This document shows positions 48,681-54,385 of a DNA stretch of 64,000 nucleotides, piece after piece (position 1 is the stretch's first letter; each line of letters begins with the position of its first letter). Source of the stretch: Methanosarcina sp. KYL-1 (GTDB lineage: Archaea; Halobacteriota; Methanosarcinia; Methanosarcinales; Methanosarcinaceae); the NCBI RefSeq assembly GCF_024372725.1, contig NZ_VOUA01000009.1:1-64000 (forward strand), in the 5' to 3' direction. A model generated the notes under the pieces. The model worked only from the letters and a program-made list of their open reading frames with translations, did not search any database and was not told the DNA's origin. A program made the translations under genes and the position numbers.

Positions 48681-48708
48681 ATTCTACCCCCATATTACTG
48701 TCATCCAC

Positions 48709-48893
48709 TCAGTTGCTTTCACTCACTTACCTTCACTCAGTTGCTTTCACTCACTTACCTTCACTCAGTTGCTTTCACTCACTTACCTTCACTCAGTTGC
48801 TTTCACTCACTTACCTTCACTCAGTTGCTTTCACTCACTTACCTTCTCTCACTTACCTTCACTCACTTACCTTCACTCAGTTGCTTTCATTCA
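48709..48893. repeat. 28-bp tandem repeat, about six units
   Basis: Units of 28 bp made of ACTCACTTACCTTC and ACTCAGTTGCTTTC halves, with exact 28-bp spacing from 48721 (48749, 48777 and on). There are no unique spacers, so it is not CRISPR. The gap 48681-49106 otherwise holds only AT-rich sequence with a likely promoter for mobB-moaE. Confidence 0.88.
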
Positions 48894-49106
48894 CTTTCTG
48901 CCAATTACTTTTTATTAAAATTCAAATTATTCGATTTAAGATCCGACTTTACATTTAATATGTATTAATGGGGTCTGAATATTTCAACTTTTACACTTAT
49001 ACAATAAAATGACTTTTTTTCAGGAAATTATCGGGAAATGTTTGTAAAATCCCGTCCTCCGGCTCTCCGACCCTTTCTTATACCGGGAAATCCATAACGC
49101 TCCCTG

Positions 49107-49943
49107 ATGAAGGTCATTTCCGTAGTAGGGTACAAGAAATCAGGTAAAACAGCCCTCGTCTCCGCCCTGGTCCAGAAACTTTCCGGGTTCGGGTCAGTGG
49201 GCACGGTAAAGCACATGGGGGAATTCCGTTACAACCCCGAGGACACGGACACCGGCAGGCATTTCGATGCGGGTGCGGACACGGTAATAGGGCTTACTAA
49301 TACCGAGATGGTCAGCTTTTCAGGGGACCCTGACCTGGAGAGGGCTCTTGACGCCCTCTGCGACCGCGGCCTTGACTTTGCGGTGGTCGAAGGCTTCAAG
49401 CAGAGCAAGCTCCCTAAAATCGTCCTCGGAGACCTTGATGGTGTCTCCAACGTCCTTATGAGGCTTCCGGAAAACCCGGACCTGCACGAGACCCTTTCAG
49501 CCTCCATCTTCGGCCTGATCCTCGCCCAGCCCGACCGCTACACCCTTGACGACCTCATAAAGCGAGTCCGGCAAAACCCGGATATCAGGAAAGCCGGCGC
49601 AATAGGCACATTTACCGGCATCGTCCGCGAACTTGCAGAAGGCACGAAAACCGAAAGGCTCGAATTCGAGAAATACGAACCCGAAGCCTCAAAAGTCCTG
49701 GACAAGATCCGCGAGGAAATCAAGCAAAAAGAAGGCATCCTCGAAGTCCTGATCCACCACAAGACCGGCGTCATCGAAGCCGGGGAAGACATCGTCTACA
49801 TCGTGATCGCATCCGCCCACAGGACCGAACTCTTCCCCGCCCTCAGCGAAGCCATCGAAAGGGTAAAAGCCGAAGCCCCGATCTGGAAAAAAGAGTTCAC
49901 GGAAAAAGAAGAGTTCTGGGTCCACGACCGGGAACACGCCTGA
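49107..49943 (+). CDS. MobB-MoaE fusion (molybdenum cofactor synthesis)
   Basis: A 278-residue two-domain protein. The N-terminal MobB-like GTPase has a P-loop GYKKSGKT (8-15) and a VKHMG switch segment. The C-terminal MoaE-like domain (about 150-275) has AIGTFTGIVRE, the HHKTGVIEAGED segment and a conserved WKKE / EFWVHD end; it is the large subunit of molybdopterin synthase. The fusion is typical of methanogen archaea. MobA follows after 69 bp, so together they make and tailor the pterin cofactor, used here for tungsten or molybdenum enzymes such as formylmethanofuran dehydrogenase. Confidence 0.93.
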   Translation: MKVISVVGYKKSGKTALVSALVQKLSGFGSVGTVKHMGEFRYNPEDTDTGRHFDAGADTVIGLTNTEMVSFSGDPDLERALDALCDRGLDFAVVEGFKQSKLPKIVLGDLDGVSNVLMRLPENPDLHETLSASIFGLILAQPDRYTLDDLIKRVRQNPDIRKAGAIGTFTGIVRELAEGTKTERLEFEKYEPEASKVLDKIREEIKQKEGILEVLIHHKTGVIEAGEDIVYIVIASAHRTELFPALSEAIERVKAEAPIWKKEFTEKEEFWVHDREHA

Positions 49944-50910: not shown

Positions 50911-51078
50911 CTTCAGGAAATATTAAAATCGAAAGCTATTTAGTCAGCAACACCTTCTATTTTTTAGACTTAATTATTTTATTATGTAGAGACTATCTCT
51001 GGGTAACGGCTTCAATACAATGAATTTTTCATTGATTATAGTGGAAAACTCGTGAGGAAAGTGAGGCAGGGATTATAT

Positions 51079-53637
51079 ATGGGATCGAACGAGATTAAAA
51101 AACTGATTATAGAGGCTCAAAGAAATAAAGTAACTGCATTAAATCTGTCTTCCAAAAATCTCACTTCACTGCCGCCTGAAATCAGTGAGTTGAAAAATCT
51201 TACTCACCTCTACATATTTAATAATCAACTTACTTCGCTTCCGTCTGAAATCAGTGGGTTAAAAAATCTTACTCACCTCTACATATCTCATAATCAACTT
51301 ACTTCACTGCCGCCTGAAATCAGCGAGTTGAAAAATCTTACTCACCTCTACATATTTAATAATCAACTTACTTCGCTTCCGCCTGAAATCAGCGGGTTGG
51401 AAAACCTTACTCAACTTTACATCTCCCATAATCAATTGACTTCACTTCCTTCTGAACTTTCTGAATTGAAAAATCTTACTATACTTGACATATCCTATAA
51501 TCAATTGACTTCGCTTCCTTCTGAACTATCCAAATTGAAAAACCTTATTGAACTTGATATGATTAGAAATCAATTGACTTCACTTCCTTCTGAACTTTCT
51601 GAATTGAAAAATCTTACTCAACTTCAAATCTCTGGGAATCAGCTTACTTCGCTTCCACCTGAAATCTTTGAATTAGGTATGGAGATTAGATGGGTATATC
51701 GTTTTGGATCAAAAGGATTACTTATAAACAATGATAGAAGACTTTTCGGAGTGAAAGGAATATTTTTAGGAGGGAACCCTTTAGAAAATCCACCTGTAGA
51801 GATTGTGAAACAGGGTCGTGAGGCAGTTCTTTACTATTTCAAGTCTTTGGAAGATGAAAAGGAGCCATTAAATGAAGTAAAAGTATTATTAGTGGGAGAT
51901 GGGGGTGCAGGCAAAACTTCGCTAGTGAAGAGGCTTTTCGGAGATGACTTTGATGAAAAGGAACCCCAAACTCGTGGGATCAATATAAGAAAATTGGATA
52001 TTGAAAACGGTAAGAGGCTTTTCGGAGATGACTTTGATGAAAAGGAATCACAGGCTCGTGGGATCAATATAAGAAAATTGGATATTGAAAACGGTGAGCG
52101 GGAAATAAAAGCTAATTTCTGGGACTTTGGCGGACAGGAGATCATGCACGCTACCCACCAGTTCTTTTTATCAAAAAGGAGTCTTTATATTCTGGTGCTG
52201 GACGGGAGGAAGGACGAAAAGCCTGAGTACTGGCTCAAACTCATAGAAAATTTCGGTGGAGATTCTCCAGTTCTGGTTGTGATCAATAAAATTGATGAAA
52301 ACCCTGCTTTTGAACTGAACAGGAAGTTCCTGAGAGAGAAGTATCCTTCAATAAGGGGTTTTTACAGGCTTTCCTGCATGTCGGGTGAGGGGATAAAGGA
52401 GTTTTCGAATATTTTGGAAGAAGAATTGAAAGCAGTCAAGCACCTCGAAATCAAATGGCCGAAAAGCTGGTTCAATGTAAAAAGCAAACTTGAAAAAATG
52501 TGTCCGAGTTGTACTTCTGATTATGGGGCTGAGGGTGAGTGCGAACAATGCAGCTTCATCCAGTACAATGAATATAAAATGATGTGTGATAAAGAAGGGA
52601 TCAGTAGCGAATCGGAACAGAATGCTCTTGTCGACTTTCTTCATGATCTGGGCGTGATACTGCATTTCAGGGACATACCTCTCCTGAATACGCATGTCCT
52701 TGAACCCGAATGGGTAACTAACGCGGTGTATAAGCTGGTTAATTCGAAGGAGATTGCAGAGTCCAGAGGAGTTCTGAAACTTGACATGTTCGCTGAGATT
52801 TTAAAGCAGAGAACTGAAAGAGATTTCCATTATCCTCCAGACCAGTATGGCTTTTTTATCAGTTTGATGAAGAAATTTGAACTCTCTTATGACCTTGATG
52901 GCAACACTGTGCTTCTCCCCGGTTTGCTGGAAATTCAGGAACCCGATTTTGAGTTTGATTATGAAGGGACTCTGAGGTTTATAATTGACTATGATTTCCT
53001 TCCACCTTCGGTGATGCCGCGCTTTATTGTGAAGATGAATAGGGACATAAAAGACGATCTGCGCTGGCGTACCGGGGTGGTTCTGGAGGATAAAGGCTAC
53101 CATTCTACTGCGGTGGTCAGAGCAGACATTGAAGCAAGGAGAATAAGCATTTACGTAAACGGGGATCAAAGAAGGGATTATTTCTCCATTATCCGCAAAA
53201 GGTTCCGGGAAATAAACAGCAGCTTCGAAAAGTTAAAAGCAACAGAAAAAATCCCGTTGCCTGATGATCCTGAGGTAACTGTAAGTTATGAGCATTTAAT
53301 CAAACTGGAGTTGAAAGGAATTGAAACCTACATGCCCGATGGCTCCGACAATGAGTATAACATAAGTGACCTTCTTGGAACAGTTATCAATAGGAGTAGC
53401 GAGAGAACATTACTGGAAGAAATACTGCGAGTAACGGAACTGAATAGAAGCACCGATAATGAGATACTCAAGATTCTTAGGAAGCTGCAGGAAATTGAAG
53501 AGGCGTCTGATACTGAGGATACTCTACTAGAAAAAATTACTAATGTTGTTTCAGTGAATCCAACCTTTTTTGGTGTTGGTTTTGATCTTGGTGAAATTGT
53601 CAAATTATATCTAAAAAGGAAAAGACGGCGGTCTTAA
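51079..53637 (+). CDS. Roco protein (LRR-Roc-COR) with duplicated switch region
   Basis: An 852-residue Roco GTPase. About eight 23-residue leucine-rich repeats (LTSLPxEISELKNLTxLxI, about 20-205) precede a Roc GTPase with P-loop GDGGAGKTS, the DxxG motif in WDFGGQE, and NKID. Between Roc and COR lies a C-P-x-C ... C-x2-C cluster (near 475-492), a possible zinc knuckle. COR follows; no kinase domain is present. A perfectly in-frame 28-codon tandem duplication (first copy from 51931, second from 52015) lies between the P-loop and DxxG, i.e. in switch I. The ATG at 51079 is preferred to a GTG at 51052. The gene is AT-rich compared with its neighbours. Confidence 0.92.
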   Translation: MGSNEIKKLIIEAQRNKVTALNLSSKNLTSLPPEISELKNLTHLYIFNNQLTSLPSEISGLKNLTHLYISHNQLTSLPPEISELKNLTHLYIFNNQLTSLPPEISGLENLTQLYISHNQLTSLPSELSELKNLTILDISYNQLTSLPSELSKLKNLIELDMIRNQLTSLPSELSELKNLTQLQISGNQLTSLPPEIFELGMEIRWVYRFGSKGLLINNDRRLFGVKGIFLGGNPLENPPVEIVKQGREAVLYYFKSLEDEKEPLNEVKVLLVGDGGAGKTSLVKRLFGDDFDEKEPQTRGINIRKLDIENGKRLFGDDFDEKESQARGINIRKLDIENGEREIKANFWDFGGQEIMHATHQFFLSKRSLYILVLDGRKDEKPEYWLKLIENFGGDSPVLVVINKIDENPAFELNRKFLREKYPSIRGFYRLSCMSGEGIKEFSNILEEELKAVKHLEIKWPKSWFNVKSKLEKMCPSCTSDYGAEGECEQCSFIQYNEYKMMCDKEGISSESEQNALVDFLHDLGVILHFRDIPLLNTHVLEPEWVTNAVYKLVNSKEIAESRGVLKLDMFAEILKQRTERDFHYPPDQYGFFISLMKKFELSYDLDGNTVLLPGLLEIQEPDFEFDYEGTLRFIIDYDFLPPSVMPRFIVKMNRDIKDDLRWRTGVVLEDKGYHSTAVVRADIEARRISIYVNGDQRRDYFSIIRKRFREINSSFEKLKATEKIPLPDDPEVTVSYEHLIKLELKGIETYMPDGSDNEYNISDLLGTVINRSSERTLLEEILRVTELNRSTDNEILKILRKLQEIEEASDTEDTLLEKITNVVSVNPTFFGVGFDLGEIVKLYLKRKRRRS

Positions 53638-53854: not shown

Positions 53855-54385
53855 TTAATTTCTTCCCTGACGGGCATCCTCTATCTCAAACTCAACCCCG
53901 CGCTTCTCGAGCTCCTTTTTAATTTCCTCCATAAACACGCCCGAGCCTTCCACGTTTGTATGGTGGAACTCCTGTGTTTTTCCGGGCTCTCCGCCGATGC
54001 TGGTTATTTCTACGCCGCAGGAGGGGCTTTTCGGGACTCCGAGGATTTTGATTTTTGCGCCGCCGGCTGCGAGGTCTTCGATCAGGTCGGCGTAGGGGGT
54101 GAAGAGTTTACGGCAGAAGCGCCTGTAGGCGGGGTAGTCGAGCTGGTCTTTGGTAATTTCCCGCCGGTTCATGCCCAGGTACATGGCTTCGGGGCAGGGG
54201 AGCTGGATTACGTTCATGCCTGTAACGTCGAGGGGGGGTTTGGGTCTTGCACCTTTGATCCTGGCAAGGGGGTTCAGGAGGCAGTGGCCTATTACAACAA
54301 CTTCGTTCTCAACTTCGTCCTGGATGTCGAGCAGGTCGCATTTTCTGGGGGCCGGGGTGGGCTCGTAGTTTTCCAGTTTTTTCAT
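53855..54385 (-). CDS. TudS/DUF523-related protein (CD3072-like)
   Basis: A 176-residue cytoplasmic protein with conserved cysteines in VIGHCLLNPLARIKG, LPCPEAMYLG and PKSPSCGVE, the cysteine arrangement of DUF523/TudS proteins, which bind a [4Fe-4S] cluster and in one case remove sulfur from thiouracil. The resemblance here is to the divergent 'CD3072' branch, so the substrate is uncertain. A short Pro-rich N-terminus precedes the fold. No operon partner; a tRNA thiolase gene lies 1.4 kb away. Confidence 0.7.
   Translation of the reverse strand: MKKLENYEPTPAPRKCDLLDIQDEVENEVVVIGHCLLNPLARIKGARPKPPLDVTGMNVIQLPCPEAMYLGMNRREITKDQLDYPAYRRFCRKLFTPYADLIEDLAAGGAKIKILGVPKSPSCGVEITSIGGEPGKTQEFHHTNVEGSGVFMEEIKKELEKRGVEFEIEDARQGRN

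Follow-up and report, generated by a model that had tools for sequence, protein, structure and literature searches.

Does a G domain stay usable when the segment that holds its switch I is present twice in tandem, and what becomes of an invariant residue that then comes in two copies? These questions are raised by a Roco gene of Methanosarcina sp. KYL-1, which lies in a stretch of 64,000 nucleotides (the window, to which all positions refer). Archaeal Roco proteins are kin of the Parkinson's protein LRRK2, and Roco proteins, LRRK2 included, are studied for the coupling of switch movements to dimerisation. A G domain with a duplicated switch I, only one copy of which still has the conserved G2 Thr, is a natural test of the importance of switch I length and of the G2 Thr. 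The same domain would also test whether a duplicated segment can naturally turn into a switch. Should the protein prove inert, the locus would be just one more ordinary tandem duplication of a genome rich in repeats. The reading that we favour, and hold to be probable though by no means secure, is that of a real, lineage-private, in-frame tandem duplication within a working archaeal Roco GTPase, with a usable core and a cycle that is probably altered.

The gene forms a single open frame with a GTG start (51052–53637, stop included) and encodes a protein of 861 aa; the gene and all of its features described here are on the forward strand. It had been predicted to encode a Roco protein, and Pfam bears this out, since the domains LRR_8, LRR_4, Roc (111.6 bits), COR-A (119.7) and COR-B (113.5) all score above their cut-offs. 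Roc is followed by COR (COR-A at 52459–52929), and the N-terminal LRR domain, a trait of prokaryotic Roco members, is also present. In the DNA the LRR part is an array of 69-bp units (51091–51711), in which a 207-nt reference was matched in seven overlapping registers spaced 69 bp apart, at 60–87% identity to it. The number of LRR motifs, by a rough pattern count, varies between orthologs, and the LRR part may also gain or lose repeats. The source genome (4.04 Mb, 66 contigs) has one match to the Roco protein at E <= 0.001.

Conservation was assessed in an alignment of the Roc-COR part, A1, which comprised the window protein and 26 homologs picked by a script (open frame >500 residues, GKTSL- and DFGGQ-type motifs, duplicates removed). 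The G1, G3 and G4 motifs are all present. The P-loop (G1), GDGGAGKT at 51895–51918, falls on the invariant columns G31, G33, G36, K37 and T38. The DFGG of DFGGQ (G3, switch II; 52123–52134) falls on the invariant columns D107, F108, G109 and G110, and NKID (G4), from the motif list, is located at 52285–52296. The G5-like triplet is SCM in the window protein; of the other five rows compared, four have SCK and one has SCT. Separately, the Roc-COR linker contains a Cys-rich insert (52501–52551) with four Cys (CPSC...CEQC), a possible zinc site. The closer A1 rows (L003–L012, L041) also have the insert, with a varying set of Cys, and L013, L014 and 4wnr lack it.

The neighbouring genes, which encode a MobB-MoaE fusion, a MobA-like protein and RadC, suggest no function for the Roco gene. 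The protein encoded at 53858–54385 had no Pfam match at 1e-5, and PADLOC returned 0 families. In the fusion gene, the MobB and MoaE domains share one open frame (49107–49943). Between it and the RadC gene lies a 28-bp repeat of 6.8 copies with 94% matches (48706–48896), and a further tandem array of 17 bp, with 6.5 copies and 97% matches, is found at 693–803.

Between the P-loop and DFGG lie two direct repeats of 84 nt, copy 1 at 51928–52011 and copy 2 at 52012–52095. They are identical at 80 of 84 positions (4.8% nucleotide divergence), have no indels and are in frame, each encoding 28 residues. A chance origin of such a match is negligible (binomial P ~5e-43 for one pre-set offset). Identity breaks off exactly at both unit ends, with an extension of 0 bases either way, and therefore there is no exact microhomology at the present-day junction. 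The P-loop lies three codons upstream of the unit, and DFGG nine codons downstream of it. The original prediction was right about the tandem pair of near-identical 84-bp units, an in-frame 28-codon duplication between the P-loop and DxxG that includes switch I, but it put the starts (51931 and 52015) three bases late and the end (52110) 15 bases past copy 2. It had also described the unit as the switch I region following the P-loop helix. Switch I with the G2 motif is indeed inside, but by two AlphaFold models the unit also takes in the last residues of alpha1 and all of beta2.

The spacing between GKT and DxxG is 68 residues in the window protein and 36–47 residues in about 56 distinct Roco motifs elsewhere. 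Two surveys, with a pattern that permitted up to 140 residues, provided these motifs. The first gave 51 distinct motifs (36–44 residues); the second gave 14 (36–47 residues), nine from loci of the first survey and five from new loci, while 7 of its 21 loci had no motif. Distant Roco proteins and fragments outside A1 were used for the spacing only.

The four mismatches between the copies (51964, 51966, 51969 and 51970 in copy 1; 52048, 52050, 52053 and 52054 in copy 2) all lie within three adjacent codons of the G2 motif (51964–51972 vs 52048–52056). For four random differences, clustering within 10 bp has P = 0.003. The tripeptide is P-Q-T in copy 1 and S-Q-A in copy 2, and the remaining 26 of the 28 residues are identical. 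Copy 1 carries the G2 Thr codon, ACT at 51970–51972, at the P-loop spacing seen in the single-copy rows (T56, an invariant column over the 27 rows of A1). Comparison of the copies shows that the matching codon in copy 2 is GCT, encoding Ala (52054–52056). The Thr is kept in 26 of 26 other A1 rows. In ten close relatives, the first tripeptide site holds P, S or R and the third only Thr; therefore the Ala of copy 2 is derived. From this conservation we infer that the Thr is a critical residue in the window protein as well. The earlier remark that the copies differ by a few bases can be made more precise: they differ only in the G2 tripeptide, and copy 2 is the one without Thr.

The second switch I unit was found in none of the 26 other A1 rows, each of which has a single unit. 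In five genomes (G082, G077, G006, G096 and G007), orthologs that share the gene's neighbours likewise have one unit. A DNA search of 111 family genomes with 51901–52095 matched 10 other genomes, and none of these matches reached more than 4 bases into copy 2; this search is insensitive, leaving orthologs known from the protein search (e.g. in G077, G096 and G094) unmatched, and adds little. The set comprised one genome per species. Eleven plasmid records contained Roc relatives, at 27.5–43.6% identity, and a literature search found no title on a Roco protein whose switch I is duplicated. The duplication is thus carried by one genome only among those searched, and is lineage-private within that scope. 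Its predicted recency stood up, given the low divergence between copies and its absence from the homologs; compared with the separation from the nearest relative, the duplication is young.

The segment common to both copies had itself diverged. Compared with the nearest ortholog, 12 of its 28 residues differ, vs 16 of 168 in the remaining Roc columns (P = 4.9e-5). Such an excess was significant in six of seven comparisons that involved the window protein (the exception being L008, P = 0.10) and in none of eight among relatives. Silent changes relative to L003 affected 12 of the unit's 17 silent sites and 141 of 348 elsewhere; in pairs of relatives they were also high in the unit, at 10 to 13.5 of ~17. 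Downstream of the unit, a 900-nt block grouped closest with L003 (from G082) in 499 of 500 bootstraps. The 219-nt block through copy 1 had no leading relative (L010 in 163 and L031 in 126 of 500), and L003 was missing from the five relatives listed. Recombination is as good an explanation for the divergent unit as fast protein evolution. The DNA search of the 111 family genomes, with its low sensitivity, found no donor of the segment; the best match outside the window's own genome was the ortholog in G007, from another genus of the family, at 81% over 110 bases.

How the protein might accommodate two units was considered with AlphaFold, using A1 as the input alignment. The model of the window protein (mean pLDDT 71.6, pTM 0.65) retains the elements of the G domain. 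Alpha1 spans residues 37–44, the 31 residues 56–86 have pLDDT <50, beta2 (87–96) is formed by copy 2, and beta3 spans 99–107. A single-copy ortholog, modelled by the same procedure, gave pLDDT 78.4 and pTM 0.79, with alpha1 at 37–44, beta2 at 57–68 and beta3 at 71–80. The drop in confidence relative to this control speaks against the favoured reading. Since MAFFT placed the gap in A1 directly after Thr56 and the AlphaFold placement follows the alignment, the choice of copy 2 for beta2 is not independent evidence. In the model, the fold can accommodate the extra residues as a switch I that is overlong and disordered. The best structural match was 4wnr (Foldseek E 2.5e-40; Z 28.6, rmsd 5.0, 319 aligned), with other Roco and LRRK structures next.

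On the favoured reading, the model suggests a division of labour between the copies. Copy 1 would remain joined to the P-loop and alpha1, presenting the G2 Thr at its normal spacing, and copy 2 would remain joined to beta3 and supply the beta2 that pairs with it. The residues in between would loop out in a disordered state, and the gap between alpha1 and beta2 would grow from about 12 to about 42 residues. Nucleotide binding would be kept. Likely to be shifted are the way switch I becomes ordered when GTP is bound, the rate of hydrolysis and the nucleotide-dependent cycle between dimer and monomer. With copy 1 already occupying the site, the Thr of copy 2 may have become dispensable. With copy 1 joined to alpha1 and copy 2 joined to beta3, the chain must cross between the copies somewhere. 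Crossing after the first Thr would place Thr in the G2 site, and crossing before it would place Ala there. The former is the simple reading, and switching between the two crossings is the novel one. The duplication may plausibly be a tuning change of the GTPase.

The strongest competitor is that the duplication was neutral or slightly harmful in a dispensable gene, with a product that is misfolded or inert and a decay that has just begun. The gene is patchy: the Roc-COR part was matched in 29 of the 111 family genomes, the window's own included, and some of the matches are broken pieces with stops (G090, G076, G085, G102 and G080). Roco genes come and go within the family. An insertion of 28 residues is also large for a G domain, an otherwise invariant Thr is missing from copy 2, and the confidence of the model is lower than that of the single-copy control. 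Tandem repeats are moreover common in the source genome, where Tandem Repeats Finder reported 379 rows in 464 kb (the window plus 20 stretches of 20 kb). The rows overlap and include the LRR array of the Roco gene and the switch I duplication itself. Within open frames of at least 150 residues, 15 of 16 rows with a period of at least 30 had a period divisible by three, vs 11 of 34 outside such frames. Because of this excess, in-frame tandem duplication is an ordinary event in this genome. The origin of the switch I duplication is therefore ordinary and its position in a G domain unusual; its consequences are read from sequence and model.

Against decay, the gene has neither stops nor frameshifts, its P-loop, DFGG and NKID are retained, and the Thr is still present in copy 1. 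Outside the unit, dN/dS of the Roc-COR part was 0.086 relative to the nearest ortholog, in keeping with the 0.098–0.185 of six pairs of relatives, and 0.063–0.128 relative to eight homologs; several dS values are near saturation. The Roc-COR part is under purifying selection, and most of the divergence behind the pairwise rates predates the duplication. Early decay, which the original prediction had allowed for, thus found no positive support, and we consider it a doubtful account, albeit one that keeps some weight.

An artefact of assembly or of a strain mixture, in which two alleles of the segment were joined, is conceivable for a draft in 66 contigs, and the duplication occurs in no other genome searched. 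However, the copies differ at four sites, the unit length is a multiple of three, the unit ends do not overlap, and the junction sequence is missing from the 25 other segments compared. An assembly error is unlikely, given the differences between the copies and their distinct junction sequence.

Least probable, and barely credible at present, is an alternate-frame switch of natural origin. Here the Thr copy and the Ala copy would compete for one G2 site, and switch I would alternate between its normal form and one that lacks the Thr. In its favour are the near-identity of the copies, the confinement of all changed residues to the G2 tripeptide, the replacement of an invariant Thr by Ala in one copy and the fact that either crossing point would give the native single-copy register plus a 28-residue loop. 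Against it, a tandem copy departs from the engineered design, which appends the copy at the opposite end of the protein, and redundancy is a simple enough reason for one Thr to be lost. AlphaFold gives one arrangement only, set by the alignment. Were it true, GTP sensing would be gated by which copy of switch I-beta2 threads into the G domain.

This last idea has its model in engineered alternate-frame-folding switches. According to the available text of the report on them, a segment with a critical residue is duplicated and that residue is changed to Ala in one copy (PMC10018487). The barnase switches accordingly share with the window protein a duplicated segment whose key residue is Ala in one copy. 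They differ in that they are engineered, carry the copy appended at the opposite end of the protein, and have had their switching proven experimentally, whereas the present case is natural, tandem and known from sequence (PMC10018487).

Closest to the window protein by sequence is Methanosarcina barkeri Roco2 (PDB 4wnr; E 3.9e-133), likewise an archaeal Roc-COR. It has a single switch I unit, lacks the 28-residue insertion and shows a gap where the window protein has the Cys-rich insert of the Roc-COR linker. The Roco protein of Chlorobium tepidum (PDB 3dpu, 6hlu and 8r4b) shares the LRR-Roc-COR order but has one G2 motif, and phmmer places a gap of 20 residues relative to the window protein in the switch I stretch. 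As far as the accessible text describes it, switch I of CtRoco is flexible and not visible in the Roc-COR structure, its length is very variable among Roco proteins, and CtRoco shifts between dimer and monomer with nucleotide (PMC6337361). Human KRAS and HRAS variants also have a switch region lengthened in frame by duplication or insertion. In the portion of that study available, such changes of 7–10 residues in switch II lowered intrinsic GTPase activity about tenfold and prevented GEFs from acting, but left effector binding in place (PMC6547725). The GTPase cycle is altered in RAS and would, by inference, be altered here. The RAS changes are disease variants of 7–10 residues in switch II (PMC6547725), whereas the duplication described here adds 28 residues to switch I in an archaeal genome.
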